Of a stretch of 64,000 bases of DNA, positions 47,726 to 64,000 are shown piece after piece; position 1 is the first letter of the stretch; each line of letters opens with the position of its first letter. Location: the NCBI RefSeq assembly GCF_000314735.2, contig NZ_KB375270.1, positions 1,178,001-1,242,000 of the forward strand, given 5' to 3'. The notes beneath the pieces are model-generated. The model saw nothing but the letters and a program-made list of their open reading frames with translations. It was not told where the DNA came from and searched no databases. This DNA is from Afipia felis ATCC 53690. GTDB lineage: Bacteria > Pseudomonadota > Alphaproteobacteria > Rhizobiales > Xanthobacteraceae. A program made the translations under genes and the position numbers.

Positions 47726-47729
<4 letters not shown>

Positions 47730-48673
47730 AGCCGGGTCGCCTTGATGTTTTCGGAGAAGTAACGCCAGCCCGTCTTGCGGAACTGGCGGATGATGTCGGC
47801 AAGGCCGCGCGGCATCAGCACGACTGCCGCGACTACCACGACGCCGAAGAACAGGCCCGCGATGCTGGTGACTTCGCTCGACAGCACTTCGGAGATCGCG
47901 GAGAGCGACAGCGCGCCCACGATCGGCCCGAGGATGGTGCCGGGACCGCCGAAGACCGCCATGATGATCATCTTGACGTTGAGGCTGATGTCGAACGCGC
48001 TTTCAGGATCGATGAACGTCACCCAATAGGCGTGGATGCCGCCCGCGAGCGAGCTGAACACGCCCGACAGCGCGAACGCCATCACCTTGTAGAGCGTCGT
48101 GTTGACGCCCATCACCTTGGCGCCCTCTTCGTTCTCGCGGATCGCAATCAGGCCGAAACCGAACTTGCTGCGCGACAGCCACCAGATCGTCAACGTCACC
48201 GCGACGAGCAGGCCGAGCGCCAATTCATAGAACAGCATGTCGTTGTTCAGCGGCGGCAGTACAAGGCCGATGTTCTGGCCCGCCAGCGGCACGTTGGACA
48301 CGATCGCCGCCATCACCTGCGCCAGAGCCAGCGTCGCGATCGCGAAGTAATGCCCCTTCAGCCGCAACACGGGAATGCCGAGCAGGATCGCGAACGCAAC
48401 GGCCAGCACGACGCCGAGGGCGAGACCCACGCCGAACGGCAGGTCCCACTGCACCATCGCGATGCCGACGCCGTAGCTACCAAGACCATAGAACACCGAA
48501 TTGCCGAAGGATGCATAACCGGTGTAGCCGCCGATGATGTTCCAGCCCTGCGCCAGTACGGCCAGCAGCAACGCGTTGATGCCGAATTGCACCAGCACGT
48601 CGGAGCCGAACCACGGCACCGCGATCAATACAATGAGCGCTATGAGGATGAGGATGGTGCGAAGCGCTTTCAT
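47726..48673 (-). CDS. livM: Branched-chain amino acid-type ABC transporter permease (LivM family)
   Basis: This is a 315-residue permease with about eight to ten helices and the LivM signatures GYTGYASFGNSVFYGLGSY and RENEEGAKVMGVNTTLYK, followed by GGIHAYWVTFIDPESAF. Its ATG overlaps the livH stop (ATGA). It forms the membrane channel with LivH. It is translationally coupled with its neighbours on both sides. Confidence 0.92.
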
Positions 48674-49533
48674 GCCGTTTTTCCAAGAAGGCCGCTCGGG
48701 CGCACGATCAGCACCAGCACCAGCACGCCGAAGCTCGCCACGTCGGCGAAGGTCGCGCCGATATAGAGCACCGCCAGCGATTCAATGATGCCGAGGAACA
48801 GGCCGCCGACGATCACGCCGAGTGGATTGTCGAGACCGCCGATGATGGCGATCGCGAACGATTTCGCCGTCAGCGTCGCGCCGATATAGGGGTTGATCTG
48901 CGACACCGTGCCATAAAGACCACCAGCGGCACCCGCGAGGCCAATGCCGATGCCAAAAGTCATCGCATAAAGATGGCGCGGCTCGACGCCGTAAAGGCGC
49001 GCGGCGACGAGGTTCTGCGCGGTCGCCCGAATGGCTCGGCCGAGCCGGGTGTGAAGAAGAAACAGCCACATCGCAACCGTCAGCACGATAGCGACGGCGA
49101 AGGCGAGAAGGCGCGCCAGCGGGAGCACGACGGCACCGAGCTGGATGCTGTTACCCGCATAGGAAGGATTGATGGTGCGGAAGTCAGCGGAGAATGCGAG
49201 CTGCGCGAGATAGGTCAGCACGACTTCCAGCCCGAAGGTGATGAGCAGCGTGTTGAACATCGGCGCCCGCACGACGAGGTTCAGAAGTCCTCGCTGCACG
49301 GCATAGCCGAAAGCGAACATCACCACCGCCGTAATCGGCAAGCCGAGAAAAGGATCGATACCGAGATACGTATAGAGATGCCAGGACAGATAGGCGCCGA
49401 GCATGATGAACGCGCCATGCGCCAGATTGACGATGTTCAGCACACCCCAAACCAGCGCGAGGCCGAGGGCCATCACGGCGTACAGCCCTCCGAGCAGTAC
49501 GCCGTTGACCAGAATTTGTATGAGCAGGTCCAA
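48670..49533 (-). CDS. livH: Branched-chain amino acid-type ABC transporter permease (LivH family)
   Basis: This is a 287-residue permease with the LivH signatures NGVLLGGLYAVMALGLALVW and NIVNLAHGAFIMLGAYLS and the conserved EP-type loop GVEPRHLYAMTFG. It starts at a TTG (49533) with AGAGGG upstream. It lies 48 bp after the binding protein gene. With LivM it forms the pore for a branched-chain amino acid-like or other small organic acid substrate. Confidence 0.92.
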   Translation of the reverse strand: MDLLIQILVNGVLLGGLYAVMALGLALVWGVLNIVNLAHGAFIMLGAYLSWHLYTYLGIDPFLGLPITAVVMFAFGYAVQRGLLNLVVRAPMFNTLLITFGLEVVLTYLAQLAFSADFRTINPSYAGNSIQLGAVVLPLARLLAFAVAIVLTVAMWLFLLHTRLGRAIRATAQNLVAARLYGVEPRHLYAMTFGIGIGLAGAAGGLYGTVSQINPYIGATLTAKSFAIAIIGGLDNPLGVIVGGLFLGIIESLAVLYIGATFADVASFGVLVLVLIVRPSGLLGKTA

Positions 49534-49581
49534 GATGCCCTCTCCCGTTCAGCCTCGGAATAGCAACGCCAAGCCGAAGGC

Positions 49582-50799
49582 TTAGCGTGCGTTCCAGGCC
49601 GGCATCGGATACTTCGGCGGATTGATCGCACCCTTGGTGCCGTAGATGGCGACAAGCTTCTCGCCCTGCACCTGGATCACCGTCTGCGGCAGGTCGATCT
49701 GGCCGTTGGCGGCAAAGGCGATCGGGCCGTAGATGCTCTCGAACTTCACCGCGGCGAGCGCATCGCGAACCTTCGCGGGATCGGTCGAACCGGCATCCTC
49801 GATCGCCTGAACCAGCGCCTCGACGTCGGCGGCGCCCGAAGCGGCGTGGTAGTCCGGCTCATAGTTGAACTTCGCCTTGTATTCGCTCTCGAACTTGGCC
49901 GCGTCGCCGAACCAGCGGTCCTTCAGGTCCGCCGAAGGCAGCCACGCAGTCATGCCGAAAGCGTAATCGGCATCCTTGCCAAGCGCCTTGCGGAAGTCTT
50001 CGCTCGGCACACCGACCGTGAACGAATACATCTTCGGCGCAACCGTGAGGCTCTTGGCCTGACGCACGAAGTTGAGAATTTCGGTCTCGTGACCTGCGAC
50101 CAGCACCGCATCGACGTTCTTGCTGCGGATCTGCGACAGCAGCGAATTGAAGTCCGTCGCGTTAGTGCTGTAGCGCTCGTCCATCACGACGTCGAAACCG
50201 GCAGCCTTGAGCTTGGGCCGGGTGCCGTCGGCCACTGACACGTCGAAGGAGTCGTCGGCGTACAACAGCGCCACCGACTTCGGCGCGGGCTTCAAACCCT
50301 TCATCATGTCGATGGTGGAGCCGAAATAGTTGCTGGCGGGCGCCAGCGTGCCGAAGATGTATTTGAACTTACGAGCGAAGATCTGGTCCGAAGCACCACC
50401 GCCTTGCACCATCGGGATCTTGTATTTTTCCGACACGGCGGAATCGGCCAGCGCGAAGTTGCTGGCAAACGGCCCGAGCAGGAAGTCCACCTTGTCCTGC
50501 GAGACGAGCTGGGTGTACTGCCGCACGCTCAAATTCACATCGGACTGGTTATCGTAAATCTTGAGAACGACCTTGCGCTTCTCGTTACCGACCTTCACGC
50601 CGCCAGCCGCGTTGATCTTTTCGACCGCGAGTTCATAGGCGTCGCGGTAATAGCGGCCGGTGTTAGCGACGGGGCCGGTCAACTGCACCGACGCGCCGAA
50701 AACGATGTCCTTCGCAGTCGCCGGATTGGCCGCAAACGCCAATACCGCAGCAGAAGCTGCAGCAATCAAAGTCTTTTTGGAGATCAATCGGTTCGACAT
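49582..50799 (-). CDS. Periplasmic binding protein of a Liv-type ABC transporter
   Basis: This is a 405-residue type I periplasmic-binding-fold protein with a signal peptide (about 1-29, ending NPATA-KD). The mature part begins [17 protein letters not shown]. Family members bind leucine, other amino acids, amides, urea or aromatic and dicarboxylic acids; the ligand is not readable here. The ATG at 50799 is chosen; a GTG three codons upstream also exists. It heads the livH-livM-livG-livF operon. A terminator and a gap of about 200 bp separate it from the oxc-frc operon upstream, so regulation is probably separate. Confidence 0.85.
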
Positions 50800-50945
50800 G
50801 GCTATCACCCGCTCTCTAACGAAAATGAGATATCGCTTGATAAGGCTGCGACAGAAAAACGCAACCGTCGAGGCTTGCCACTATCGTTTAAAGATGCCTT
50901 GGCGGTACCGACCAATCCCGCTCGCGCTGCATTGCAGCGCATAAA

Positions 50946-51002: not shown

Positions 51003-52277
51003 TTACTCGGCGGCGAGCGGAACTTCGCCGAGCGCGCCGGACGAGCGGATGTCGCTGATCTGGTTGTCGGAGAACTTCAGAACTTCGCGCAGGATTTCAT
51101 CGGTGTGCTCGCCGAGCAGCGGCGAACGCACCACTTCCGTCGGGCTGTCGGACAGCTTGATCGGGTTGCCGACCGAGATGTACTTGCCGCGGGTCGGATG
51201 ATCGACTTCGACAAGCGTGCCGGTCGCATACAGCGACTTGTCCTCGGAGATTTCCTTCATCGACAGGATCGGGCCGCACGGAATGTCGACCTTGTTGAGG
51301 ATGTCCATGCACTCGAACTTGGTCTTGGTCATGGTCCACTGCTCGATGCGACCGAAAATCTCGTTCAGGCGCGGCAGGCGGGCTGCCGGCTTGGCGTAGT
51401 TCGGATCGGTCTTCCAGGTGGGCTCGCCGATCACGTCGCAGATCTTCTCCCAGACCGGAGCCTGGGTGATGAAGTACAGGTAAGCGTTCGGGTCGGTTTC
51501 CCAGCCCTTGCACTTCACGATGCGGCCCGGCTGGCCGCCACCGGAATCGTTGCCGGCGCGCGGGGTGGCTTCGCCGAACGGAATGCCCTCGCCGAACTGG
51601 CTGTATTCCTTGAGCGGGCCATGCGCGAGGCGCTGCTGGTCGCGCAGCTTGACGCGGCACAGGTTGAGCACGCCGTCCTGCATCGCGACGGTAACGCGCT
51701 GGCCCTTGCCCGACTGGGTGCGATGGTAAAGCGCGGTGACGATGCCGAGCGCCAGGTGCAGGCCGGTGCCGCTATCGCCGATCTGGGCGCCGGTCACGAG
51801 AGGCAGGCCGTCACGGAAGCCCGTGGTCGAAGCCGAACCGCCGGTGCACTGCGCGACGTTTTCGTAAACCTTGCAGTCCTCGAACGGACCGGGGCCGAAG
51901 CCCTTGATCGAAGCAACGATCAGCTTCGGATTGATCTTCTGGATGTTTTCCCAGGTGAAGCCCATGCGGTCGAGCACGCCGGGGGCAAAGTTTTCGACCA
52001 TGACATCGCAGCTCTTCATGAGCGCGGTGAGGACTTCCTTGCCCTTCGCGTTCTTCGCATCGAGCGTGAGCGAACGCTTGTTATGGTTCAGCATCGTGAA
52101 ATACAGGCTGTCCGCGTTCGGGACATCCTGAAGCTGACCGCGGGTGATGTCGCCGGTGCCGGGACGCTCAACCTTGATAACGTCCGCGCCGAACCACGCG
52201 AGTAGCTGAGTACAAGTCGGTCCCGATTGAACGTGAGTAAAGTCCAGAATACGGACCCCGTTGAGCGCCTTCGTCAT
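51003..52277 (-). CDS. frc: Formyl-CoA:oxalate CoA-transferase (class III CoA-transferase)
   Basis: This is a 424-residue protein. It aligns along its length with the Oxalobacter Frc family: [21 protein letters not shown] at the N terminus, catalytic aspartate D168 in [37 protein letters not shown] and [14 protein letters not shown] sequence at the end. It transfers CoA from formyl-CoA (or another acyl-CoA donor) to oxalate, giving oxalyl-CoA in the cytoplasm. The ATG at 52277 is chosen because GGAGGA lies just upstream; a second ATG nine codons earlier lacks such a site. It follows oxc by 76 bp on the same strand and is ended by a strong terminator. CoA donor specificity is inferred. Confidence 0.94.
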
Positions 52278-52353
52278 AGCTTCCTCCAGTTGATTCTTAT
52301 TCACCTTTGTCCCGACCGCCCCTTCCCGAAGGAAGAGGCGCCGGAGTTGTCAC

Positions 52354-54093
52354 TCATTTCTTCTTCACAACCACGCTTTGCGGATTGAGGCTGCCGATGT
52401 TGCCGCTCTCGGTACCCGCTGCCGGATCGATCACCGCGTTGATGAGGGTCGGCTTGCCGGAATCCATGGCGGCGATGACGGCGCGCTTCAGTTCATCCGG
52501 CGTCGTCACGTGAACGCCGACACCGCCAAACGCTTCCATCATCTTGTCGTAGCGAGCGTCCTTCACGAACACCATCGGCGCAACGTCGGGACCGCCCGTC
52601 GGATTGACGTCGGTGCCGCGATAGATGCCGTTGTTGTTGAAGATCACGACGCAGACCGGCAGGTTGTAGCGGCAGATCGTCTCCACCTCCATGCCGGAGA
52701 AGCCGAACGCGCTGTCGCCCTCGATCGCGAGGACCGGCTGGCCGGTTTCGACAGCCGCGGCCACGGCAAAGCCCATGCCGATGCCCATCACGCCCCAGGT
52801 ACCGACGTCGAGACGCTTGCGCGGCTTGTACATGTCGATGATGCCGCGAGCGAGGTCGAGCGTGTTGGCGCCTTCGTTGACAAGGATCGCATCCGGACGA
52901 TCCTTGATGATCGTGCGGAGTGCGCCGAGCGCGCTGTGGTAGTTCATCGGCGAAGCGTTGTTCATCAGCTTCGGCGCCATCTTTGCGATGTTGGCTTCCT
53001 TCTTGGCGTTGACGGAGCCAGTCCAGTCGGCAGGAGCCTTCGCCCACTTGCTGTCCATGCCTGCGAGCAGAGCGGACACGCAGGAGCCGATATCGCCCAC
53101 CAGCGGCGCGACGATTTCGACGTTCGAGTCCATTTCCTTCGGCTCGATATCGATCTGAATGAACTTCTTGGGTTCGGAGCCCCAGCTCTTGCCCTTGCCG
53201 TGCGACAGCAGCCAGTTGAGGCGTGCGCCGATCAGCATGACGACGTCGGAGTCCTTCAGCACGGTCGAACGCGCTGCGCCGGCCGACAGCGGATGCGTAT
53301 CCGGCAGAATGCCCTTGGCCATCGACATCGGCAGGAACGGAATGCCGGTCTTTTCGATCAGTTCACGGATCTTGTCGTCGACCTGCGCGTAGGAAGCGCC
53401 CTTGCCCAGAATGATCAGAGGGCGCTTGGCACCCTTGAGCACGTCGAGCGCGCGCTTGACGGCGGACGGCGCAGGAATCTGCTCCGGCGCAGCGTCGATC
53501 ACCTTGACGAGCGACTTGGCGCCCGCTTCCGCGGTCATGACCTGCGAGAAGAACTTCGCCGGCAGATCGAGATAGACGCCACCCGGACGGCCCGAGCAGG
53601 CAGCGCGGATCGCGCGAGCAATGCCGATGCCGACATCCTGCGCGTGCAGCACGCGGAAGGCCGCCTTGCAGAGCGGCTTGGCGATCGCGAGCTGATCCAT
53701 TTCTTCGTAGTCGCCCTGCTGGAGGTCGACGATCTCACGCTCGGACGAGCCGGAGATCAGGATCATCGGAAAACAGTTGGTGGTGGCGTTGGCGAGCGCC
53801 GTCAGACCGTTGAGGAAGCCGGGAGCCGAAACGGTGAGGCAGATGCCGGGCTTCTGGGTCAGGTATCCAGCGATCGCGGCGGCGTTGCCGGCGTGCTGCT
53901 CGTGACGGAACGAAATGACACGGATGCCCTCGCCCTGAGCCATACGGCAGAGATCCGAAATCGGAATCCCCGGCACGGCATAAATCGTGTTGATATCGTT
54001 CAGCTTGAGCGCGTCGATGACGAGATGGAAGCCATCCGTCAATTCCTGCTCTGCTGCATTGGTGTCAACGTTTGCTACTGCTGCTACTGACAT
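52354..54093 (-). CDS. oxc: Oxalyl-CoA decarboxylase
   Basis: This is a 579-residue thiamine diphosphate enzyme with an N-terminal pyrimidine-binding domain whose catalytic glutamate is E65 in [12 protein letters not shown]. It has a central domain and a C-terminal diphosphate-binding domain with [11 protein letters not shown] near 459-469 and [13 protein letters not shown]. The length and sequence match the Oxalobacter/YfdU group. It converts oxalyl-CoA to formyl-CoA and CO2. The ATG at 54093 has GGGAGG upstream; an in-frame ATG at 54114 is less likely. It heads the oxc-frc operon and is divergent from the oxalate-type transporter, with 657 bp between them. Confidence 0.95.
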
Positions 54094-54401
54094 CAGTACC
54101 CTCCCAGGGTTCATTCCGCTTCACGCGGTTTTCTATCGAGGTGACCTGCTCGCGAGGAACGAGCTGCTTGTGTTTTGGTGGATCGTCGTTCGTAAAATCA
54201 TGGCTTACAGATGAGACTTCTTACATCCGCTGCAGACCTATCCAGCCTGTGAACGTGTGATCGGCTGCCGAGCGCCACAACCTCATCTTCATCGCCGAAG
54301 CTGCGAAGATATCGGGTTGGGCAGGCGCGCCCCACTCATCGTCACAAGCCGAGCATCCGATAAACCACATATGAAATGCATATCGTTGCTGAAAAAATCC
54401 A

Positions 54402-54420
54402 TTGGCATACAAAATACCAA
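54402..54420. promoter_or_regulatory. Palindromic operator candidate A of the oxalate island
   Basis: TTGGCAT-ACAAA-ATACCAA: two 7-bp half-sites (TTGGYAT / ATRCCAA) separated by 5 bp. The arms are identical to those at 54685. Half-sites of the TTGGTATACCAA type are usual for FCD-subfamily GntR regulators, and one (60756-61511) is encoded at the end of the cluster. Confidence 0.7.
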
Positions 54421-54684
54421 GTGTCAACGACGACGCGGATGCCTCCACACTCCTTTCAGTAGCCAAATGTCGCAGACTGATGGCTGTGGCAGCCTATTCC
54501 CCCATTCGACTCAGTCCCGCCGGCTACAGCGACGGTTCCGTCGTCTCACGACATAAAACGGCAGCAGAAAAAATTTATCCAATAATAATAAGGCGTAAGG
54601 TGGATATTTTAATGCAGTCCGGCAGCGTTTTCGGCCGGAATGATGCGCATAACAGCGCAGTTTTGATCGATACCCTCTTGCCTA

Positions 54685-54703
54685 TTGGCATATCATATAC
54701 CAA
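54685..54703. promoter_or_regulatory. Palindromic operator candidate B, before the transporter gene
   Basis: TTGGCAT-ATCAT-ATACCAA has the same arms and the same 5-bp spacing as 54402-54420 but a different spacer, which argues that the arms are under selection. It ends 47 bp before the chosen ATG of the MFS transporter. Confidence 0.75.
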
Positions 54704-54750
54704 AATCACCCTACGCACTTCGACTAAGAAAGTGCCTTTGGGAGGAATTT

Positions 54751-56055
54751 ATGACGCTATCGACAGGGAATGACGTCACCCGTGTGAGCGACGCGTATCG
54801 CTGGACTCAGCTTGCGCTCGGCGTTGCTTGCATGGTGATGATTGCGAACCTTCAGTACGGCTGGACCTTCTTCGTCCCCGACATCGAAAAACAATTCGGC
54901 TGGGATCGCGCGTCGATCCAATGGGCCTTCACCCTCTTCGTGCTCTTCGAAACCTGGCTCGTGCCAGTCGAGGGCTGGATCGTCGACAAGTACGGCCCGC
55001 GCCTCGTGATCCTGATGGGCGGCGCGTTTTGCGCCATCGGCTGGGTCATCAACTCCTACGCGGCGTCGCTGAGCGCTTTCTATCTCGGCCAGGTCATCGC
55101 GGGTATCGGCGCGGGCGCTGTATACGGCACTTGCGTCGGCAACGCGCTGAAGTGGTTTCCTGACAAGCGCGGTCTTTGCGCGGGTATCACCGCAGCAGGC
55201 TTTGGTGCTGGCTCTGCCTTCACCGTCGCTCCCATTCAGGCCATGATCAAGGACGACGGCTTCCAAAACGCGTTCTTCAATTTCGGCATCGGCCAGGGCG
55301 TGATCTGCATGATTCTGGCGCTCTTCATTTTTGCGCCAAAACCCGGCCAGACTCCGAAGCCGGTGGTGAACACCAACATCCAGCAGACCCGCCGCGACTA
55401 CAGCCCGAGCGAAGTCGCCAAGACCGGCGTGTTCTGGCTGATGTATTTCATGTTCGTCATCGTCGGCGCCGGCGGCCTGCTCGTCACCGCCAACCTGAAG
55501 CCGATCGCAGCCGACTGGAATATCGCCAACTCCCCCGTCACGATCGCCGGTCTGACGATGACCGCGGTGACCTTCGCCGCAACCATCGACCGCGTGCTGA
55601 ACGGCCTCACCCGTCCGTTCTTCGGCTGGATCTCCGATAGGATCGGACGCGAGAACACCATGTTCATCGCATTCGGTCTGGAAGGTGTCGGCATCGCGGC
55701 GCTTTATCTGTGGGGCCACGACCCGCTCTGGTTCGTAATCCTGACCGGCTCCGTGTTCTTCGCATGGGGCGAGATCTACAGCCTGTTTCCGGCAGCCTGC
55801 ACCGACACCTACGGCACGAAATTCGCAACGACCAACGCGGGCATGCTTTACACCGCGAAGGGGTTTGCGGCGCTTCTCGTACCGTTCGGCAACTACATGC
55901 AGCAGGCCACGGGCAGCTGGGATGGCGTCTTCCTGCTTGCTGCAGGCGCGAACATCCTCGCCTCCCTGCTGGCCGTCTTCGTGTTGAAGCCCTGGCGCAA
56001 GTCTGTTGTTATGAACAGCCAGCTTCCAAACGCCGCAGGTCATTTGGCCACGTAA
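54751..56055 (+). CDS. OxlT-like major facilitator transporter, probable oxalate/formate antiporter
   Basis: This is a 434-residue MFS protein with twelve predicted helices. It has the OxlT-family features WTFFVPDIEKQFGWDRASIQ near the N terminus, VEGWIVDKYGPR in loop 2-3, and a lysine (K370) in the LYTAKGFAALLVPF segment of helix 11, matching the essential Lys355 of OxlT. Basic residues R281/R288 lie in the helix 8 region. It would exchange external oxalate for formate or import oxalate. I chose the ATG at 54751 because GGAGG ends five bases upstream; the open frame extends further upstream but over an operator. It is divergent from oxc-frc and followed by the fused ligase. Substrate is inferred from family and context. 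Confidence 0.88.
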   Translation: MTLSTGNDVTRVSDAYRWTQLALGVACMVMIANLQYGWTFFVPDIEKQFGWDRASIQWAFTLFVLFETWLVPVEGWIVDKYGPRLVILMGGAFCAIGWVINSYAASLSAFYLGQVIAGIGAGAVYGTCVGNALKWFPDKRGLCAGITAAGFGAGSAFTVAPIQAMIKDDGFQNAFFNFGIGQGVICMILALFIFAPKPGQTPKPVVNTNIQQTRRDYSPSEVAKTGVFWLMYFMFVIVGAGGLLVTANLKPIAADWNIANSPVTIAGLTMTAVTFAATIDRVLNGLTRPFFGWISDRIGRENTMFIAFGLEGVGIAALYLWGHDPLWFVILTGSVFFAWGEIYSLFPAACTDTYGTKFATTNAGMLYTAKGFAALLVPFGNYMQQATGSWDGVFLLAAGANILASLLAVFVLKPWRKSVVMNSQLPNAAGHLAT

Positions 56056-56384
56056 AACCCCAGCAAAATCGAGCCCGCCGGATATTCCGGCGGGCTCCCG
56101 CCTTTGACAAATCCGATCCCAAGCATGTCTAATATCCGGTATGCCACGCCTGATATTTGAAATACCAAACGGGCAAACGCATTTGAAATAACCCTCGCCG
56201 CCAGCCAAAAGCGGTGGCGAACGAATTTAAAAAACCGATCGCTCTGATATGGGCTATAGCGGCCAGCAGATCGCCTCGGGAAACCATCTGAACGGACGGC
56301 AACGTCCCGTTCGATACAAGAAGCAACGCCGATACCCTATCGGCAGACGCGACGATCAACGTTGAAAAACATCGGAGTTTACTT
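56056..56384. other. Intergenic region before the fused CoA ligase, with operator-like site and direct repeat
   Basis: This 329-bp gap has no gene. It holds a GGTATGCC core at 56138-56145, an operator-like site at 56150-56168, and two copies of ATTTGAAATA (56155-56164 and 56181-56190). A ribosome site GGAG precedes the ATG at 56385. It suggests the ligase-sucCD genes have their own promoter besides any read-through from the transporter. Confidence 0.6.
56150..56168. promoter_or_regulatory. Degraded operator candidate C, before the fused CoA ligase
   Basis: CTGATAT-TTGAA-ATACCAA keeps a perfect right half-site (ATACCAA) at the same 5-bp spacing, with a weak left half. A separate GGTATGCC core lies just upstream at 56138-56145. 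Confidence 0.5.
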
Positions 56385-58517
56385 ATGGCAATCGACAAAG
56401 CATCCGTCCGCAAGGTTCTGGACAAGGTCAAGGCCGACGGCCGCGACAGCCTGACTGCGCCGGAAGGCAAACTGGTTTGTGACGCGTACGGCATCGCCGT
56501 CCCGGGTGAAGGCGTCGCCAAGTCGGCCGACGAAGCGACCAAGCTTGCCAGCGGCATGGGCTATCCGGTGGTGATGAAGATCGTCTCGCCGGACATTCTT
56601 CACAAGACCGAAGCCGGCGGCGTTGTGGTCGGTGTTAAGGACGACGCGGCTGCGAAGGCTGCTTACGACCAGATTCTCGCGAACGCCAAGAAGTACAAGG
56701 CCGACGCCAAGATCGAAGGCATCCAGGTTCAGCAGATGCTGACTGGCGGCACCGAAGTGATCGTCGGTTCGATCACCGACGATTCGTTCGGTAAGCTCGT
56801 TGCGTTCGGCCTCGGCGGCGTGCTCGTCGAAGTGCTCAAGGACATCACCTTCCGCATGGCCCCCGCCACCAAGGAAGACGCGCTCTCGATGCTCGACGGC
56901 ATCCAGGCCAAGGAAATGCTGCACGGCGTTCGCGGTGGCGATCCGGTGAACCGTGACGCGCTGGCCAACATCATCGTCGGCGTCTCGCAACTCGTGACCG
57001 ACTTCCCTGAAATCGTCGAACTCGATCTCAACCCGGTGTTCGCGACCAAGAAGGATGCGATTGCCGCCGACGTGCGCATCGTCGTCGACTTCAACTACAA
57101 GCCCAAGCCTGCTCCGCGTCCGGATTCGGAAATCGTCACGGCGATGAACCGCATCATGATGCCGAAGTCCGTCGCGGTCATCGGCGCTTCCGCCGAAGAC
57201 GGCAAGATCGGCAACTCCGTGATGAAGAACCTCATCAACGGCGGCTACAAGGGTCAAATCTACCCCGTCCATCCGAAGGCTGCCGACATCCTCGGCCACA
57301 AGGCCTACAAGAGCGTCAAGGACATCCCGGGCGACGTCGACGTGGCAGTGTTCGCGATCCCGGCCAAGTTCGTGGCCGGCGCGCTGACCGAGTGCGGCGA
57401 GAAGAAGATTCCCGGCGCCGTTCTCATTCCGTCGGGCTTCGCCGAAGCCAACGAGCCTGAGCTTCAGGAAGAAATCGTCAAGATCGGCAAGAAGTACGAC
57501 ATCCGCCTGATGGGGCCGAACATTTACGGCTTCTACTACACCCCGGCCAACCTCTGCGCGACGTTCTGTACGGCGTTCGACGTCAAGGGTTCGGCGGCGC
57601 TGTCGTCGCAGTCCGGCGGCATCGGCATGGCGATCATCGGCTTCTCGCGCTCGGCCAAGATGGGCGTGTCGGCGATCGTGGGTCTCGGCAACAAGTCGGA
57701 CATCGACGAGGACGATCTGCTCGCCTTCTTCGAGCAGGACAAGAACACCAACGTCATCGCGATGCATTGCGAAGACCTGAAGGACGGCCGCGCGTTCGCG
57801 AATGCCGCCAAGCGCGTGTCCAAGAAGAAGCCGGTCATCGTGCTGAAGGGTGGCCGCACGTCAGCGGGCGCCAAGGCAGCGGCGTCGCACACCGGCGCCC
57901 TCGCCGGTAACGACAAGATCTACGAGGATGTCTTCAAGCAGGCTGGCGTGATCCGCGCCCGCTCGCTGCGTCAGCTCCTCGAGTTCGCACGCGGCGTTCC
58001 GTTGCTGCCGACCCCGAAGGGCGAAAACGTCCTCATCATCACGGGTGCCGGTGGTTCGGGCGTGCTGCTGTCGGACGCTGTGGTCGACAACGGCCTCTCG
58101 CTGATGACCATGCCGGCCGATCTCGATGCGGCGTTCCGTAAGTTCATCCCGCCGTTCGGCGCTTCGGGCAACCCGGTTGACATCACCGGTGGCGAACCGC
58201 CGATCACCTACGTCAACACCGTGAAGCTCGGCCTCACCGACGATCGCATCCACTCGCTGATCCTCGGCTACTGGCACACGATCGTGACGCCTCCGATGGT
58301 GTTCGCGAAGAACATGGTGCAGATCAAGAACGAGATGAAGGCCCAGGGCTTCGAGAAGCCGATGGTCGCTTCGCTCGCGGGCGACGTCGAAGTCGAGGAA
58401 GCTTCCGAATACCTCTACCAGAACGGCATCCCGGCTTATGCGTACTCGACCGAACTTCCGGTGGAAGTGCTCGGTGCGAAGTACAAGTGGGCGCGCGGCG
58501 CCGGCCTCATCAAGTAA
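56385..58517 (+). CDS. ADP-forming acyl-CoA synthetase (fused ATP-grasp and CoA-ligase domains)
   Basis: This is a 710-residue protein. An ATP-grasp domain comes first (about 1-240: MKIVSPDILHKTEAGGV, then EVIVGSITDDSFG, then VELDLNPVF), followed by a CoA-binding domain (about 255-370: SVAVIGASAEDGKIG) and a succinyl-CoA-ligase-type domain. The phosphohistidine is H502 in AASHTGALAG. The conserved GPNCxG loop reads GPNIYG at 377-382. The family makes acyl-CoA from acid, CoA and ATP, giving ADP and phosphate; acetate is the usual substrate. Here it lies between an oxalate transporter and sucCD. Oxalate, formate or acetate are candidate substrates. The ATG follows GGAG. Confidence 0.9.
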   Translation: MAIDKASVRKVLDKVKADGRDSLTAPEGKLVCDAYGIAVPGEGVAKSADEATKLASGMGYPVVMKIVSPDILHKTEAGGVVVGVKDDAAAKAAYDQILANAKKYKADAKIEGIQVQQMLTGGTEVIVGSITDDSFGKLVAFGLGGVLVEVLKDITFRMAPATKEDALSMLDGIQAKEMLHGVRGGDPVNRDALANIIVGVSQLVTDFPEIVELDLNPVFATKKDAIAADVRIVVDFNYKPKPAPRPDSEIVTAMNRIMMPKSVAVIGASAEDGKIGNSVMKNLINGGYKGQIYPVHPKAADILGHKAYKSVKDIPGDVDVAVFAIPAKFVAGALTECGEKKIPGAVLIPSGFAEANEPELQEEIVKIGKKYDIRLMGPNIYGFYYTPANLCATFCTAFDVKGSAALSSQSGGIGMAIIGFSRSAKMGVSAIVGLGNKSDIDEDDLLAFFEQDKNTNVIAMHCEDLKDGRAFANAAKRVSKKKPVIVLKGGRTSAGAKAAASHTGALAGNDKIYEDVFKQAGVIRARSLRQLLEFARGVPLLPTPKGENVLIITGAGGSGVLLSDAVVDNGLSLMTMPADLDAAFRKFIPPFGASGNPVDITGGEPPITYVNTVKLGLTDDRIHSLILGYWHTIVTPPMVFAKNMVQIKNEMKAQGFEKPMVASLAGDVEVEEASEYLYQNGIPAYAYSTELPVEVLGAKYKWARGAGLIK

Positions 58518-58529
58518 GGGTCCAGCATA

Positions 58530-59726
58530 ATGAATATTCACGAGTATCAAGCGAAAGCCGTACTGAAGGAATTCGGCGTGCCCGTCTCCAAGGGCATTCC
58601 GATCCTCAAGGCTTCCGACGCCGAAGCTGCCGCCAAGGAACTTGGCGGCCCGGTGTGGGTGGTGAAGAGCCAGATCCACGCTGGCGGCCGCGGCAAGGGC
58701 AAGTTCAAGGAAGCCTCTGCCGGTGATAAAGGCGGCGTCCGACTCGCGAAGTCGGTCGACGAGGTGAAGACCTTCGTCCAGCAGATGCTGGGCGCCACCC
58801 TGGTGACGGTGCAAACCGGCCCCGCGGGCAAGCAGGTCAATCGCCTCTATCTCGAGGAAGGCGCGGACATCGACAAGGAATTCTACCTGTCGGCGCTCGT
58901 TGACCGCGAGACCTCCCGTATCGCCTTCGTGGTTTCCACCGAAGGCGGCATGGACATCGAAACGGTCGCCCACGACACCCCCGAGAAGATCGTCACCTTC
59001 TCGGTGGATCCGGCGACCGGCATCATGCCTCACCATGGCCGCAAGATCGCACAGGCGTTGAAGCTGAAGGGCGACCAGGCCAAGCAGGCCGAGAGCCTCG
59101 TCAGCAAGCTCTACGCGGCCTTCGTCGGCAAGGACATGTCGATGCTGGAGATCAATCCGTTGATCCTCTCCAAGCAGGGCGAACTGAAGTGCCTCGACGC
59201 CAAGGTGTCGTTCGACTCCAACGCCATCTACCGTCATCCCGACGTGCTGGCGCTGCGCGACGAGACCGAAGAAGATGCCAAGGAAATCGAAGCGTCGAAG
59301 TACGACCTCGCCTACATCGCGCTCGATGGCACCATCGGCTGCATGGTGAACGGCGCGGGTCTTGCGATGGCGACCCTCGACATCATCAAGCTCTACGGCG
59401 AAAGCCCGGCCAACTTCCTCGACGTCGGTGGCGGCGCTTCCGAGGAAAAGGTGACCGCTGCGTTCAAGATCATCACTGCCGATCCGAACGTGAAGGGCAT
59501 TCTCGTCAACATCTTCGGTGGCATCATGAAGTGCGACGTCATCGCTGCCGGCGTCGTTGCCGCGGTGAAGGCCGTCGGTCTGAAGGTGCCGCTGGTTGTC
59601 CGCCTCGAAGGCACCAACGTCGAGGAAGGCAAGAAGATCATCCGCGAGAGCGGCCTCAACGTTCTGCCAGCCGACGATCTGGACGACGCTGCACAGAAGA
59701 TCGTCAAGGCCGTGAAGGGAAAGTAA
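58530..59726 (+). CDS. sucC: Succinate--CoA ligase beta subunit (second SucC candidate)
   Basis: This is a 398-residue protein. The ATP-grasp start [34 protein letters not shown] and the [13 protein letters not shown] loop are standard SucC. It makes the nucleotide- and succinate-binding subunit of an (alpha-beta)n ligase. The ATG at 58530 follows AAGGG and lies 12 bp after the fused ligase stop. It is directly followed by sucD. In related genomes the citric-acid-cycle sucCD lies beside mdh and sucA, so this may be a second copy devoted to the oxalate cluster. That is an inference; the rest of the genome is not seen. Confidence 0.92.
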
Positions 59727-59730
59727 GCCA

Positions 59731-60639
59731 ATGTCAGTCATGATCGACAAGAACACGAAGGTCATTTGCCAGGGCTTCACCGGCAAGAATGGTACCTTCC
59801 ACTCCGAAGCGGCGATCGCTTACGGCACCAAGATGGTCGGCGGCACCTCGCCGGGCAAAGGCGGCTCGACCCACCTCGGCCTGCCGGTGTTCGACAGCGT
59901 CGCCGAGGCCCGCGCCAAGACCGGCGCGGACGCCTCCGTCGTCTACGTGCCGCCGCCGGGCGCTGCGGATGCGATCTGCGAAGCCATCGACGCGGAGATC
60001 CCACTGATCGTCTGCATCACCGAGGGCATTCCGGTGCTCGACATGGTGCGGGTGAAGCGTGCCCTCTCCGGCTCGAAGTCGCGCCTGCTCGGCCCGAACT
60101 GCCCCGGCGTCGTCACCGCCGGTGAGTGCAAGATCGGCATCATGCCGACCAACATCTTCAAGCCGGGCAATGTCGGCATCGTGTCCCGCTCGGGCACGCT
60201 GACCTACGAAGCCGTGTTCCAGACCACCCAGGTCGGCTTCGGCCAGACCACGGCGGTCGGCATCGGTGGCGACCCGGTCAAGGGCACCGAGTTCATCGAC
60301 GTGCTGGAGATGTTCCTCGCCGACGACAAGACGGAATCGATCATCATGATCGGTGAGATCGGCGGCTCTGCCGAGGAAGACGCGGCTCAGTTCCTCAAGG
60401 ACGAAGCCAAGCGCGGCCGCAAGAAGCCGATGGTCGGCTTCATCGCGGGCCGTACCGCTCCTCCGGGACGCCGGATGGGCCATGCCGGCGCCATCGTGGC
60501 GGGCGGCAAGGGCGATGCGGAATCCAAAATTGCCGCGATGGAAGCAGCCGGGATCTCGGTCTCGGCCTCCCCGGCCCGGCTCGGAAGCACGCTGGTGGAG
60601 CTCCTGAAAGGGAATAAGCCAGCAAAACGAACCGCTTAA
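59731..60639 (+). CDS. sucD: Succinate--CoA ligase alpha subunit
   Basis: This is a 302-residue protein. The active-site phosphohistidine is H251 in [16 protein letters not shown], and the CoA-binding cysteine C124 is in [11 protein letters not shown]. It interacts with SucC to convert succinate, CoA and nucleoside triphosphate to succinyl-CoA. The ATG at 59731 lies 5 bp after the sucC stop. The C terminus is longer than usual and ends [11 protein letters not shown] terminator follows at 60650-60677. Malate thiokinase (MtkB) is a family alternative but context gives no C1-serine-cycle genes. Confidence 0.92.
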
Positions 60640-60649
60640 AAAAGACTGA

Positions 60650-60677
60650 CCAAGGCCCCTTCTGGGGCCTTGGTTTT
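60650..60677 (+). terminator. Rho-independent terminator after sucD
   Basis: A 10-bp stem (CCAAGGCCCC at 60650-60659 with GGGGCCTTGG at 60664-60673, loop TTCT) is followed by TTTT. It ends the ligase-sucCD transcript before gntR. Confidence 0.9.
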
Positions 60678-60736: not shown

Positions 60737-60762
60737 CTGGCATACGGCAGGAAATATGCCAG
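60737..60762. promoter_or_regulatory. Palindromic operator candidate D at the regulator start
   Basis: CTGGCATA (60737-60744) and TATGCCAG (60755-60762) are exact reverse complements with a 10-bp spacer. The right arm overlaps the ATG at 60756. The half-sites match those of candidates A and B, but spacing differs. This suggests autoregulation of the GntR gene. Confidence 0.55.
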
Positions 60763-61511
60763 ATAATAACGGGATGGAACGCGTGAAACCAATCGCCCAG
60801 CGGGCGCCCTTGTCGAAGCCGGCACCTGAACTCGTCGTCGGCCGGTTCGCACCTGAGCAAACTTTCAAGACCCGCGCCTATGAGGCTCTGAAGCAGGCCA
60901 TCCTCGATATGGATATCTACGCTTCCGCCGAGCCCGCGTGGATCGACGAGCGGCAGCTCTCCGAACAGCTTGGCGTCAGCCGCACTCCGGTCCGCGAAGC
61001 CATCGTGATGCTCGAGCACGAAGGCCTCGTCAAATCAGTGCCGCGCAAGGGCGTGATGGTTCTGAAGAAGACCAAACGCGAAGTCATCGACATGATCCAG
61101 GCCTGGGCCGCACTGGAAAGCATGGCGGCCCGCCTCGCCACCCTGCATGCGAGCGACGAAGCCATCGCCGGCCTGCGCCGCCTGTTCCGGGGGTTCGACG
61201 ACGCCCACAAGCCGTCCGATCACCTCAGCGAATATTCTTCGGCCAACATTCTGTTTCACCAGACCATCGTGAAGCTGTCGGGCTCGCAGGTGCTGGTCGA
61301 CATGACTGAGCAGATCCTGCTGCACGTACGGGGCCTGCGTCAGATCACCATCGGCCGCGACGACCGCGCCTCGCGTTCGATCGTCGATCACCTCGCCATC
61401 ATCGACGCCATTGAGAAGCGCGAGACCGAACGCGCCGTGATCCTGTCGCGCGACCACACGCTTGGCCTCGCCGACTATGTGGCCGCCCACAGCGACGGCA
61501 TCTTCGAATAG
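60756..61511 (+). CDS. GntR/FCD-family transcriptional regulator of the oxalate island
   Basis: This is a 251-residue protein. The winged helix region (about 45-105) has SEQLGVSRTPVREAIVMLEHEGLV, and the FCD ligand domain (about 115-240) has SSANILFHQTIVKLSG and SIVDHLAIIDAIEKRE with the metal-binding histidines. FCD regulators typically repress catabolic operons until a small acid, often with a bound metal, is present. The start is uncertain: ATG 60756 overlaps an operator, and ATG 60774 gives a shorter form. Position at the end of the cluster and shared half-sites make it the likely regulator of oxc-frc and the transporter-ligase genes. Confidence 0.85.
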   Translation: MPDNNGMERVKPIAQRAPLSKPAPELVVGRFAPEQTFKTRAYEALKQAILDMDIYASAEPAWIDERQLSEQLGVSRTPVREAIVMLEHEGLVKSVPRKGVMVLKKTKREVIDMIQAWAALESMAARLATLHASDEAIAGLRRLFRGFDDAHKPSDHLSEYSSANILFHQTIVKLSGSQVLVDMTEQILLHVRGLRQITIGRDDRASRSIVDHLAIIDAIEKRETERAVILSRDHTLGLADYVAAHSDGIFE

Positions 61512-61596: not shown

Positions 61597-62370
61597 TCAG
61601 TTCTCGTACACATTATGCAGCGTGCCGATGCCCTCGATCGTCACGTCCATGATGTTGCTCGGCTCCTTCATGGTGCCTACACCGATCGAAGTACCGCAGC
61701 AGATCAGATCGCCGGGATTCAGCGTCATATCGTGCGACAGCATGCTGACGAGCTTGCGCGGCTGGAAGATCATGTCAGAGACCTTGTAGTTCTGCCGCTC
61801 CGCACCATTCAGGACGAGACGCACCGACAACGTCGCCGGATCAAGTCCCGTCGCGATCACCGGACCGAACGGACCAAACCCGTCGTAGCTCTTGGCGCGG
61901 GTCCACTGAGCGAAGCTCTCATCCTTGAAGAGGACTTCAGCCGCCGTGATGTCGTTGACGCAAGTGTAGCCGAAGATCGCCTTCTCGGCCTCTTCCTCCG
62001 AGGCGTTGGTACAGGTCTTGCCGATGACGATGCCGAGTTCGCCCTCATACACGACCTTGCCGGCATAGGCTTTCGGCCGCTTGATCGTTGTGTTCGGCGA
62101 AGTAATGCTGGAATTCGCCTTGATGAAGTAAAGCGGCTCCGGCGGAATCGACTGCTTCAGTTTCGCCGCGAGTTCACGGAAATTATTCCACAGCGCAACG
62201 ATCTTGGTCGGCTCGGACGGCGGCAGCACCTCGACGCTGGAAATCGCCAGCGTCTGCCCCGTGGCCTTGGGCGATGCGAACATGTCGCCAGTATGCTCGG
62301 CGATGGTGTCCCCGCTCAGCGTACCGAAGCCCGCCTTGCCGTTCGCACGATATCGAATCCACTGTGTCAT
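61597..62370 (-). CDS. Fumarylacetoacetate hydrolase-family protein
   Basis: This is a 257-residue protein of the FAH superfamily. Conserved blocks are YEGELGIVIGK (metal-binding glutamates), NDITAAEV and KSYDGFGPFGPVI. Family members are fumarylpyruvate or acylpyruvate hydrolases, oxaloacetate tautomerases and decarboxylases, or 2-keto-4-pentenoate hydratases. The ATG at 62370 follows GGGGAA. It lies upstream of pyk in the converging direction from gntR. A role in oxaloacetate or 2-oxo acid handling in C2 metabolism is possible, but only family level is supported. Confidence 0.85.
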   Translation of the reverse strand: MTQWIRYRANGKAGFGTLSGDTIAEHTGDMFASPKATGQTLAISSVEVLPPSEPTKIVALWNNFRELAAKLKQSIPPEPLYFIKANSSITSPNTTIKRPKAYAGKVVYEGELGIVIGKTCTNASEEEAEKAIFGYTCVNDITAAEVLFKDESFAQWTRAKSYDGFGPFGPVIATGLDPATLSVRLVLNGAERQNYKVSDMIFQPRKLVSMLSHDMTLNPGDLICCGTSIGVGTMKEPSNIMDVTIEGIGTLHNVYEN

Positions 62371-62410: not shown

Positions 62411-63820
62411 TCAGACGGTAACGACGCGGAGATTGTTGGTCGAACCCGATTTGCCGAATGGCACGCCCGCGACCACGACGATGCAGTCGCCGTCCTTCGC
62501 AAGCCCGCTGTCCTTGGCATGATGAACCGCATGGCTCACCATTTCGTCATATGACGCAATATCGTCCGAACGCATGCTCGTCGAGCCCCACAGCCAGGCC
62601 AGCTGGCGGGCGGTCGACTCATTCGGCGTCACGCTCAGGATCGGCGTCGGCGAACGCTGGCGCGCGATCCGGTAGGCGGTCGCGCCGCTCGAGGTGAACG
62701 CCACGATACAGGCGGCACTGATGGAGTCGGCGACCTCCGTGGCCGCCGCCGCGATCGCGTGCTGCGGCAAAGGCTCGACCTGCGGATGCAGCGCCGCGAC
62801 GATGCTGCGATACGCCTTGTGCTGCTCGGTCCGGCGGATGATGCGGTCCATCGTCTGGACCGCCTGCACCGGAAACTGCCCCGAAGCGGACTCGGCCGAC
62901 AACATCACCGCGTCGGAGCCGTCATAGATCGCGGTCGCGACGTCGGAGGATTCCGCGCGCGTCGGCGTCGGCGTCTGGATCATCGATTCCAGCATCTGGG
63001 TCGCGATGATGACCGGCTTGCCCGCCAGACGGCACAGCCGCACCAGATCTTTCTGCGCGCCCGGCACGTCCTCCGGCGGGATTTCCACGCCGAGATCGCC
63101 GCGCGCCACCATGATGGAATCCGACAGTGCGACGATATCCTCGATCACCGACATCGCCGCCGGCTTCTCGATCTTCGACATCACGCCCGCGCGCCCGCCA
63201 ACCAGCGTGTGCGCCTCGATCAGGTCGGAGGCGCGCTGCACGAACGAGAACGCGACCCAGTCGACGCCAAGCTCGAGGCCGAAGGCGAGATCGACGCGAT
63301 CCTTCTCGGTGATCGGCGACAGCGCCAGAATCGTGTCCGGCAGGTTGACGCCCTTGCGGTCGCTGACGATGCCGCCGGCAATCACCCTGGCATCGATATA
63401 GCCCTCGCCCACGCCGGTCGCCGACAGCCGCACCTTGCCGTCGTCGATCAGAAGCTGGTTGCCCGGCACGATGGCGTCGAACACCTCCTTGTGCGGCAGC
63501 GGCAGGTCGTTGCCCTTCGCAGTCTTTTCGCAGACGAAGCGAACCGTGCTGCCGTTGGTCAGTTCGCGCTTGCCGCCTTCCAGCGGCCCGAGGCGGATCT
63601 TCGGACCCTGCAGATCCTGCAGGATCGCGATCGGCGTGCCGACCTCGCGCTCGACCGCGCGGATCGCCTCATAGCGCGCGCGGTGATCCTCGTGGGTACC
63701 GTGGCTGAAATTGAGCCGGAACATGTCGACCCCGGCATCATAGAGCTTGCGGATCATCTCGGGCGAGGAACTCGCCGGGCCTAGCGTCGCAACGATCTTC
63801 GCGCGCCGATTGCGGCTCAT
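62411..63820 (-). CDS. pyk: Pyruvate kinase
   Basis: This is a 469-residue enzyme with the Pyk blocks RRAKIVATLGPAS, LNFSHGTHEDH, LQGPKIRLG, MSKIEKPAAM and VARGDLGVEIPPEDVP, and a complete C-terminal allosteric domain. It converts phosphoenolpyruvate and ADP to pyruvate and ATP. The ATG at 63820 follows AAGGA. It lies 66 bp after the gene for a tartronate-semialdehyde-reductase-type protein on the same strand, an arrangement found in rhizobial gcl-hyi-glxR-pyk clusters, so it may be part of the glycerate branch. Confidence 0.95.
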   Translation of the reverse strand: MSRNRRAKIVATLGPASSSPEMIRKLYDAGVDMFRLNFSHGTHEDHRARYEAIRAVEREVGTPIAILQDLQGPKIRLGPLEGGKRELTNGSTVRFVCEKTAKGNDLPLPHKEVFDAIVPGNQLLIDDGKVRLSATGVGEGYIDARVIAGGIVSDRKGVNLPDTILALSPITEKDRVDLAFGLELGVDWVAFSFVQRASDLIEAHTLVGGRAGVMSKIEKPAAMSVIEDIVALSDSIMVARGDLGVEIPPEDVPGAQKDLVRLCRLAGKPVIIATQMLESMIQTPTPTRAESSDVATAIYDGSDAVMLSAESASGQFPVQAVQTMDRIIRRTEQHKAYRSIVAALHPQVEPLPQHAIAAAATEVADSISAACIVAFTSSGATAYRIARQRSPTPILSVTPNESTARQLAWLWGSTSMRSDDIASYDEMVSHAVHHAKDSGLAKDGDCIVVVAGVPFGKSGSTNNLRVVTV

Positions 63821-63847
63821 CTTCAATTCCTTCCGTCAATATAACTG

Positions 63848-63886: not shown

Positions 63887-64000
63887 TTACTTCTTGCCGG
63901 CGACCGCGTGGTTGGCCATCAGCTCGAGCGCCTTCACCATGCCCGAGTGATCCCACGCCTTGCCGCCATTGGCCGCACAGGTGTTGAACAATTCCTGCGC
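63887..64000 (-). CDS. glxR: 3' end of 2-hydroxy-3-oxopropionate reductase (tartronate semialdehyde reductase), partial
   Basis: Only the last 37 codons are inside the window; the gene starts beyond it. The frame contains LFNTCAANGGKAWDHSGMVKALELM, which is characteristic of the GlxR/GarR branch of the 3-hydroxyisobutyrate dehydrogenase family. It reduces tartronate semialdehyde to D-glycerate with NAD(P)H. The location beside pyk fits the rhizobial glyoxylate carboligase cluster. It would link C2 acids such as glyoxylate to central metabolism. A 3-hydroxyisobutyrate dehydrogenase is the alternative. Confidence 0.8.
   Translation of the reverse strand, partial: AQELFNTCAANGGKAWDHSGMVKALELMANHAVAGKK

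Follow-up and report, generated by a model that had tools for sequence, protein, structure and literature searches.

Two ATP-Linked CoA Ligases in an Oxalate-Assimilation Locus of Afipia felis: A Candidate Supply of CoA Thioesters

Gene Organization of the Oxalate Locus

The window analysed here is a stretch of 64,000 nucleotides (G000:C1:1178001-1242000) from the 4.2 Mb genome of Afipia felis ATCC 53690. It carries the oxalate genes frc, oxc and oxlT, followed by a gene for a fused ADP-forming acyl-CoA ligase, called LIG below, and by sucC and sucD; we ask what such ligases would do beside oxalate genes. A preliminary description of this DNA had frc and oxc diverging from oxlT, followed by the fused ligase, sucC and sucD, and all six genes are indeed where it placed them (Table 1). 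Its remark that they are tightly packed holds for LIG-sucC and sucC-sucD, which are 12 bp and 4 bp apart, but not for oxlT and LIG, separated by 329 bp. The set of Frc, Oxc and OxlT needed for oxalotrophy is complete, all three scoring above curated cut-offs in one locus, and oxc is the sole gene in the genome above the TIGR03254 cut-off. As developed below, the case that an ATP-linked CoA-activation module recurs in oxalate loci is stronger than the preliminary description could see.

The window Frc is 58% identical to an E. coli frc product. Its gene probably starts at ATG 52277, the list of open reading frames having GTG 52304. For oxlT, ATG 54751 is probably the start rather than TTG 54685, because an operator-like site spans 54685-54703. 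Beyond the window end follow a panE-like gene, glxR, hyi, gcl, a BhcR-type regulator gene (372 bits, cut-off 350) and another SucDC-like pair. The name gcl is backed by an annotated relative, while glxR and hyi are presumed names. The panE-like product falls in the 2-dehydropantoate 2-reductase subfamily NF005089 (467 bits, cut-off 223) and is, from its context, a probable oxalyl-CoA reductase and a candidate counterpart of PanE2. Judged by this gene content, the locus links the uptake and decarboxylation of oxalate with its assimilation by the glycerate route.

Table 1. Features of the oxalate locus (window coordinates).
Feature	Position	Strand	Evidence
frc, formyl-CoA:oxalate CoA-transferase	51003..52277	-	TIGR03253, 725.9 bits (cut-off 504.2)
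oxc, oxalyl-CoA decarboxylase	52354..54114	-	TIGR03254, 1015 bits (cut-off 739.4)
Operator-like palindrome TTGGCATACAAAATACCAA, oxc-oxlT gap	54402..54420		0 mismatches to TTGGYATNNNNNATRCCAA
Operator-like palindrome TTGGCATATCATATACCAA	54685..54703		0 mismatches; 48-66 bp before likely oxlT start
oxlT, oxalate/formate antiporter	54751..56055	+	TIGR04259, 633 bits (cut-off 335)
Hairpin directly 3' of oxlT	56071..56097		12-pair stem; T-run on minus strand only
Weak operator-like site upstream of LIG	56150..56168		2 mismatches
LIG, fused ADP-forming acyl-CoA ligase, 710 residues	56385..58517	+	Pfam domains
sucC, succinate-CoA ligase beta	58530..59726	+	NF001913, 581.8 bits (cut-off 370)
sucD, succinate-CoA ligase alpha	59731..60639	+	NF004230, 459.4 bits (cut-off 336)
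Hairpin directly 3' of sucD	60649..60674		11-pair stem; T-run of five on minus strand only, TTTT on plus
GntR/FCD-family regulator	60756..61511	+	PF00392 and PF07729
Fumarylacetoacetate-hydrolase-family (FAA) protein	61597..62370	-	PF01557
Pyruvate kinase; opens block of glycerate-route genes	62411..63826	-	TIGR01064, 498.5 bits (cut-off 306.4)

The Fused Ligase Forms a Clade Linked to Oxalate Genes

LIG has its ATP-grasp half first and its CoA-binding half second. Four domains (ATP-grasp_5, CoA-binding, Succ_CoA_lig and Ligase_CoA_2) exceed their Pfam gathering scores, and by domain content the protein belongs to the superfamily of ADP-forming acyl-CoA ligases. His502, in the motif SHTGALAG, is invariant in all ten ligases aligned, as is His73; we take the SHTG histidine of the alpha half, here His502, to be the phosphohistidine. 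The solved relatives 8wzu (4-hydroxybutyrate), 9y43 (3-hydroxypropionate) and 4xyl (acetyl-CoA synthetase) have the same domains as LIG, and the profile match to 9y43 is nearly full-length with the domains in identical order. The predicted fold is thus clear from the sequence. LIG differs from these relatives in forming a separate clade that is tied to oxalate genes. When compared with the named acetate-, 4-hydroxybutyrate- and 3-hydroxypropionate-CoA ligase models, it scored 473.1, 565.3, 472.9 and 491.5 bits against cut-offs of 567.15, 1300, 1300 and 1200, and reached none of them.

Databases call members of the family 'acetate--CoA ligase family protein' and the like. Those names would suit a general acetate-type ligase that is co-expressed by chance, perhaps providing acetyl-CoA for a YfdE-like acetyl-CoA:oxalate transfer, and YfdE does use acetyl-CoA according to the accessible part of its description (PMC3720670). 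However, LIG scores 473 and 491 bits with the acetate models, whose cut-offs are 567 and 1200. The best score with the YfdE model NF008511 was that of the window Frc (197.4 bits, cut-off 522), and none of the ten window proteins scanned, to which that search of the genome was confined, reached it. We consider an acetate-type role very unlikely.

To place LIG we used 80 genomes of the same family as a comparison set, counting LIG at an identity of at least 80%. It is present in 12 of them, each time with frc or oxc no more than 20 kb away. One of these genomes (G040) has LIG and frc with no oxc above the cut-off, and a sub-cut-off thiamine-diphosphate enzyme stands in the place of oxc. The edge of the clade in this set is sharp: LIGs score at least 1260 bits and the next match by score has 352 bits and 36% identity, although shorter partial matches reach 45%. 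A protein from [Pseudomonas] carboxydohydrogena is 99% identical to LIG. As far as these comparisons go, LIG belongs to an unnamed clade that has sharp limits and is tied to oxalate genes.

A wider sample was taken from a species collection, in which we inspected the best 80 of 586 relatives (the named loci), with up to 10 kb of flank on each; full flanks were available at 51. These loci are not independent, 31 of them coming by title from Bradyrhizobium, Tardiphaga or Afipia kin. The gene frc was found at 71 of the 80, oxc at 55 and either at 73; with full flanks the figures are 48 of 51 for frc and 49 for frc or oxc. The co-location of the fused ligase with oxc and frc that the preliminary description proposed to look for is therefore borne out in both samples. 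Two 33% paralogues of LIG in the Afipia genome (L013 and L014), a small control, have no oxalate gene nearby.

Plasmids repeat the pattern. Of 482 matching plasmid records, 16 hold LIG at 63-83% identity and the rest are below 60% (the lower matches among the 40 listed do not exceed 39%). We inspected the neighboring genes in eight of the 16. Oxalate genes and sucCD are annotated near LIG in the Streptomyces, Phyllobacterium, Paracoccus and Skermanella records, and in the unannotated Cupriavidus and Nonomuraea records tblastn located frc and SucC-like genes; the Streptomyces and Nonomuraea loci have frc, LIG and SucCD-like genes together. Phage records were rejected as carriers: five matched, all below 60% identity, and the three listed are at 25-34%. 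Because it recurs across genomes, the linkage of the ligase to oxalate genes is more than chance.

At 31 of the 80 named loci frc lies less than 600 bp upstream of LIG on the same strand, and on the M. nodulans and A. brasilense plasmids frc-LIG stands with no oxc or sucCD in the 10 kb shown. Such pairs would be expected of a formate-CoA ligase, which would make formyl-CoA from formate and ATP and so prime and refill the Frc cycle, the role of LIG being unchanged; formate is, moreover, plentiful in the oxalate pathway. Within the family, however, the alternation of LIG with a second CoA-transferase (see below) fits activation of oxalate at least equally, and a formate-CoA ligase strikes us as rather unlikely.

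Two observations on neighbors of LIG stand apart. At 13 of the 80 named loci (e.g., L029:5691-7445 and L131:10520) a thiamine-diphosphate enzyme about 26% identical to Oxc lies beside frc and LIG; it is a candidate alternative oxalyl-CoA decarboxylase. On an alphaproteobacterial contig from a metagenome-assembled genome (MAG; L102:207-7711), LIG, sucC, sucD and sucA stand in a row, placing LIG at citric-acid-cycle genes.

A Second LIG Copy

The Afipia genome has a second LIG at G000:C1:3186567-3188693 (L010:10062-12197), whose protein is 98% and whose DNA 94.0% identical to the first; homology to the window does not extend beyond the gene. It follows genes that we take to be selA-selB-selD and pntAB, and precedes what are presumably DehI-type and HAD-type dehalogenase-like genes, an SSS transporter gene and a reductase-like gene; two of the genes around it gave no NCBIfam match. 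A role with haloacetates is possible. A 58% relative of the reductase-like gene (L010:17164) is found near GntR-frc-frc on a conjugative-type plasmid of Ancylobacter polymorphus (L169:4001-5071).

The presumed pntAB, two dehalogenases and second reductase beside this copy are what might be expected if the module ran towards ATP. In that case the PanE-like enzyme would oxidise glyoxylate, derived from glycolate or haloacetates, to oxalyl-CoA, and LIG and/or a CoA-transferase with SucCD would recover ATP. In P. fluorescens an oxalate CoA-transferase and succinyl-CoA synthetase yield ATP from oxalyl-CoA, as stated in the available text of PMC2752808. On the other hand, the window genes sit with an oxalate importer and oxc, the closed Frc cycle yields no spare thioester when oxalate is the substrate, and the haloacid-type linkage is found in one genome only. 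We judge this direction quite unlikely.

Origin and Recurrence of sucCD

The window sucC is the sole canonical copy in the Afipia genome; two other SucC-like proteins are 35-36% identical to it. The window SucCD keeps the loops SRSGTLTYE and DVGGGASEE, which we take to be its substrate loops, and it was rejected as a malate-CoA ligase (MtkAB), the beta subunit scoring 485.4 bits against the 604 of NF010647. Elsewhere in the genome sucA, which is above its cut-off, lies 284 bp from a gene that we take to be mdh, and sucCD is absent between them. The congeners G025 and G065 have mdh-sucCD-sucA-sucB and, in addition, a second sucCD in the oxalate locus. In a tree of 59 SucC sequences, several of them long-branched, the copies of the window and of a MAG (L032) fall inside the citric-acid-cycle clade (support 100/97) and group with copies of G025, G065 and G026 (99/89). 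An approximately unbiased (AU) test went against grouping the window and L032 SucC with the congeners' oxalate copies (p 0.024, for a group named after the tree had been seen). The MAG (2.7 Mb, perhaps incomplete) has the gene order of the window and one canonical SucC; the arrangement therefore cannot be put down to the misassembly of a single genome.

Tree and gene order identify the window sucCD as the citric-acid-cycle pair, relocated to the oxalate locus. The preliminary description had treated the pair as a dedicated one, while reasoning that if the genome held no other sucCD this would be the citric-acid-cycle copy. No other canonical copy was counted, and with the 35-36% identity of the other SucC-like proteins, the empty place between mdh and sucA and the position in the tree, a SucCD dedicated to oxalate in the Afipia genome was rejected.

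Sharing a locus with oxalate genes is nevertheless recurrent for sucCD. All seven family genomes with two full-length sucC (G016, G025, G041, G043, G059, G065 and G073) have the second copy 5-9 kb from oxc. SucC, scored at an identity of at least 50%, lies in the flanks of 19 of the 80 named loci, as the preliminary description had suggested looking for, and directly follows LIG at 10; two SucC at that identity were counted in 14 of the 22 genomes compared behind such loci. On the tree the label 'oxalate-linked' requires five changes (gains or losses), at least four of them forced by well-supported branches. The arrangements vary. G018, G041 and G073 have oxc-frc-second frc-sucC, and a short contig of G001 has frc-second frc-sucC. 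In G022 and in G062 the single SucC match lies at the end of the row gcl-hyi-glxR-panE-FAA-sucCD. In locus views, as opposed to whole genomes, A. ramasamyi has GntR-oxc-frc-sucC-sucD with LIG not nearby, and Skermanella has oxc-frc-LIG-sucCD.

Could the window sucCD be a relocated citric-acid-cycle pair that came to share a promoter with LIG by accident and has no oxalate role? Its being the sole canonical copy (with only one also in L032), its place inside the citric-acid-cycle clade and its absence between mdh and sucA would all agree with that. Yet SucC stands directly after LIG at the 10 loci mentioned, Bosea, Mesorhizobium and Phyllobacterium with LIG-sucC also retain a copy beside mdh/sucA, and G022 and G062 likewise have their only sucC match in an oxalate-assimilation locus. 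An accidental placement is, in our estimate, unlikely but worth keeping in view.

The other two SucC-like proteins, those at 35-36%, belong to SucDC-like pairs that were also considered. That at L011:9135-11178, beside gcl and BhcR, is 35% identical to SucC and has relatives in the oxalate clusters of Phyllobacterium, Mesorhizobium, Bosea and P. alcaliphilus. It was rejected as a citric-acid-cycle enzyme: it just passes the model (379.3 bits, cut-off 370), but its substrate loops are altered. Counting pairs of this type, oxalate loci would have three nucleoside-diphosphate (NDP)-forming ligases. The pair at L012:8160-11624 was rejected as SucCD, as it adjoins a SauS equivalog (798 bits, cut-off 600). 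It is probably a sulfoacetate-CoA ligase in a sulfoacetate degradation locus, whose other genes are presumably for tricarboxylate-type transport and a thiamine-pyrophosphate (TPP) enzyme.

Assimilation Genes and the Second frc

A panE-like gene, at least 53% identical to the Afipia copy, lies within 20 kb of oxc or frc in 25 of the 68 family genomes that bear frc. Eight of these 25 have LIG, 13 have a second frc, none has both and four have neither. Carriage of LIG or a second frc is thus seen in 21 of 25 panE-linked genomes as compared with 4 of 43 unlinked ones (Fisher p 6e-10, uncorrected for kinship). Where sucC lies no more than 12.5 kb from oxc or frc (14 genomes), LIG (6) or the second frc (8) is always present, and in the whole family LIG (12 genomes) and the second frc (13) never co-occur. 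The FAA-family gene is present at 13 of the 80 named loci and sits between panE and sucC in L170 and L171.

The second frc product is 62-65% identical to that of the window. The idea that it is clearly a succinyl-CoA:oxalate transferase was weakened by its 71% identity to an E. coli frc product and its 744 bits (cut-off 504) as a formyl-CoA transferase.

A Palindrome Shared by the Oxalate Genes

The palindrome in the oxc-oxlT gap lies within a 27-bp block that aligns to L032 while its flanks do not, and the pattern TTGGYATNNNNNATRCCAA was derived from this common block. With up to two mismatches the window has four sites, where 0.27 are expected and none of 100 shuffles reaches four. With up to one mismatch the pattern occurs at four places in the genome: two between oxc and oxlT, one at gcl/BhcR and one at window 17370. 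The reversed pattern, used as a control, occurs at none. The site before oxlT was found in L032 too. Among 77 other loci, 38 have a palindrome in the 350 bp before LIG, compared with 9 of 3075 control windows, and in several loci it also precedes oxlT, oxc and gntR. A relative of the GntR protein (at least 45% identical) is present at 58 of the 80 loci, and we infer that the window protein reads the palindrome. The palindrome likely joins oxc, oxlT, gcl and, mostly in relatives, LIG in one regulon. No operator was found before the second LIG copy.

The remaining one-mismatch site, at 17370-17388, is far from the oxalate genes, between what are presumably an ABC transporter gene (15366-17306, minus strand) and a LOG-family gene (17508, plus strand). 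It is either chance or an unexpected regulon member.

Other Features of the Region

No terminator role is claimed for the strong hairpins 3' of oxlT and sucD, because of their minus-strand T-runs and because the scan for a hairpin plus T-run gave 14 sites, against 9.2 +/- 3.4 in shuffled sequences. Directly beyond frc, on the same strand, are branched-chain-amino-acid-type ABC transporter genes (47726-50808), whose binding protein matches PF13458. From 63887-64000 of the window into L011:1888-2874 runs a frame of 328 residues that combines the first ~185 residues of pyruvate kinase with the C-terminal part of GlxR. It stands between full copies of both genes and reflects a tandem duplication or an assembly fault.

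A Model for CoA Activation

The genes described above, their linkage across genomes, the common palindrome and the captured citric-acid-cycle sucCD are read directly from sequences, whereas the enzyme activities that follow are predicted from family membership. Frc would convert formyl-CoA and oxalate to oxalyl-CoA and formate, and Oxc would convert oxalyl-CoA to formyl-CoA and CO2. These two enzymes alone would recycle one thioester, and plain decarboxylation would require priming only. The PanE-like enzyme, however, would reduce oxalyl-CoA to glyoxylate, which would pass on to Gcl, Hyi, GlxR and pyruvate kinase. Because this reduction releases CoA, one new thioester would be needed for each oxalate assimilated. 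LIG could use ATP to make it directly, its most likely activity being that of an ADP-forming oxalate-CoA ligase; formate, the less likely substrate, would serve through Frc. SucCD would make succinyl-CoA, a second donor from which a Frc-type transferase could take CoA, and since the citric-acid-cycle sucCD has moved into the operon, one copy would have to serve both pathways.

We give about an even chance to the view that LIG-sucC-sucD is the ATP-paid supply of CoA thioesters of an oxalate-assimilation locus. The readings weighed here overlap, and our estimates for them need not sum to one. Of the two roles that the preliminary description had offered, the supply of activated CoA fits best. 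The other, recovery of the energy of formyl-CoA as ATP, fails on stoichiometry: the Frc cycle reuses each thioester and, being closed, would give no net ATP. Recovery would pay only if oxalyl-CoA were formed oxidatively from glyoxylate, for which P. fluorescens offers a precedent (PMC2752808).

Several findings weigh against a supply role. LIG is under the cut-off of all nine NCBIfam models that it matches, and its second copy is flanked by other genes and not by the oxalate set. Seven of the 80 named loci have no frc or oxc in their flanks (L066 and L098, each with 10 kb to either side; L100 and L105, with 10 kb to one side only; and L069, L099 and L102, which lie on short contigs). As to the palindrome, 31 of the 38 loci that have it upstream of LIG are Bradyrhizobium, Tardiphaga or Afipia kin, none was found upstream of LIG in betaproteobacterial loci, LIG in the window has only a two-mismatch site upstream, and in L032 it has none within one mismatch. 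Four LIG genomes (G043, G059, G064 and G066) have no linked panE; in G064 panE is on another contig. G026 was counted as panE-linked from a match of only 102 residues. The exclusion between LIG and the second frc has p 5e-4 over the 25 panE-linked genomes but p 0.10 over the 68 with frc, and the alternation may follow kinship. As a universal rule it was rejected, since Cupriavidus L081 and L083 have LIG, the second frc and sucCD; A. brasilense plasmid records, probably of one strain, contain frc-LIG together with a relative of the second frc at 88% identity. Finally, the window sucCD could have no task beyond the citric acid cycle.

A bolder form of the model is possible and is put forward tentatively. 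LIG would be the first member of a family of ADP-forming, reversible oxalyl-CoA or formyl-CoA synthetases, ranging from Alphaproteobacteria to Actinomycetota and coupling the metabolism of oxalate and glyoxylate to ATP in either direction. The sucCD of the citric acid cycle would have entered oxalate clusters on more than one occasion, there to drive the oxalate CoA-transferase reaction that has long lacked a gene, and the citric acid cycle here would depend on the pair in the oxalate operon.

Comparison with Known Systems

Papers are cited in this section by what their accessible parts state. The locus resembles the oxalyl-CoA reductase/glycerate route of M. extorquens (PanE2) and C. necator (ApbA2), where oxc, frc, a panE-like gene and gcl-hyi-glxR likewise lie in or near the locus, and oxalyl-CoA is probably reduced to glyoxylate in Afipia as it is there (PMC7486775). 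The available part of that account does not include the ligase or sucCD, and the Afipia locus adds two ATP-linked CoA ligases. It does describe, near frc-oxc of C. necator, a CoA-acylating glyoxylate dehydrogenase whose deletion slows growth on oxalate (PMC7486775).

Oxalate CoA-transferase, EC 2.8.3.2, was described in 1961, and a paper of 2023 states that no gene had been identified (PMC10192776). In comparison, the oxc-frc-second frc-sucCD sets of the relatives place succinyl-CoA synthesis beside CoA-transferases, while the Afipia window has one frc only. For the second frc product, use of formyl-CoA is favored because of its identity to the E. coli enzyme. That sucCD may be a source of succinyl-CoA for oxalate activation has already been named, without gene linkage (PMC12188714), and neither the linkage nor LIG is mentioned in the accessible parts of PMC10192776 or PMC12188714. 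A variant tricarboxylic acid (TCA) cycle of P. fluorescens, with glyoxylate dehydrogenase, oxalate CoA-transferase and succinyl-CoA synthetase, also links SucCD, a CoA-transferase and oxalyl-CoA (PMC2752808). It makes oxalate and ATP under aluminium stress, and a gene cluster or fused ligase is not described in the text available (PMC2752808).

YfdE, which can prime from acetyl-CoA in some bacteria, shares with LIG the proposed job of priming oxalate catabolism when formyl-CoA is missing, but it transfers CoA from acetyl-CoA where LIG would carry out an ATP-driven ligation (PMC3720670). In the open-licence literature we found no description of a LIG-sucCD oxalate module, which does not imply its absence from print, and PMC9476978 does not describe one. 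High transhydrogenase expression on oxalate in M. extorquens, cited in PMC13344952, is of interest here because the second LIG copy follows genes that we read as pntAB.

How the first CoA thioester is paid for, and each one lost on reduction of oxalyl-CoA, has been only partly explained so far. The loci offer concrete, testable candidates in LIG and in the frc-frc-sucCD arrangements. If the proposed role is correct, it would give a function to the proteins of this clade that now go under 'acetate--CoA ligase family', the presence or absence of the module could tell oxalate clusters that assimilate from those that only degrade, and an ADP-forming activation step would become available for engineered oxalate and glyoxylate pathways.

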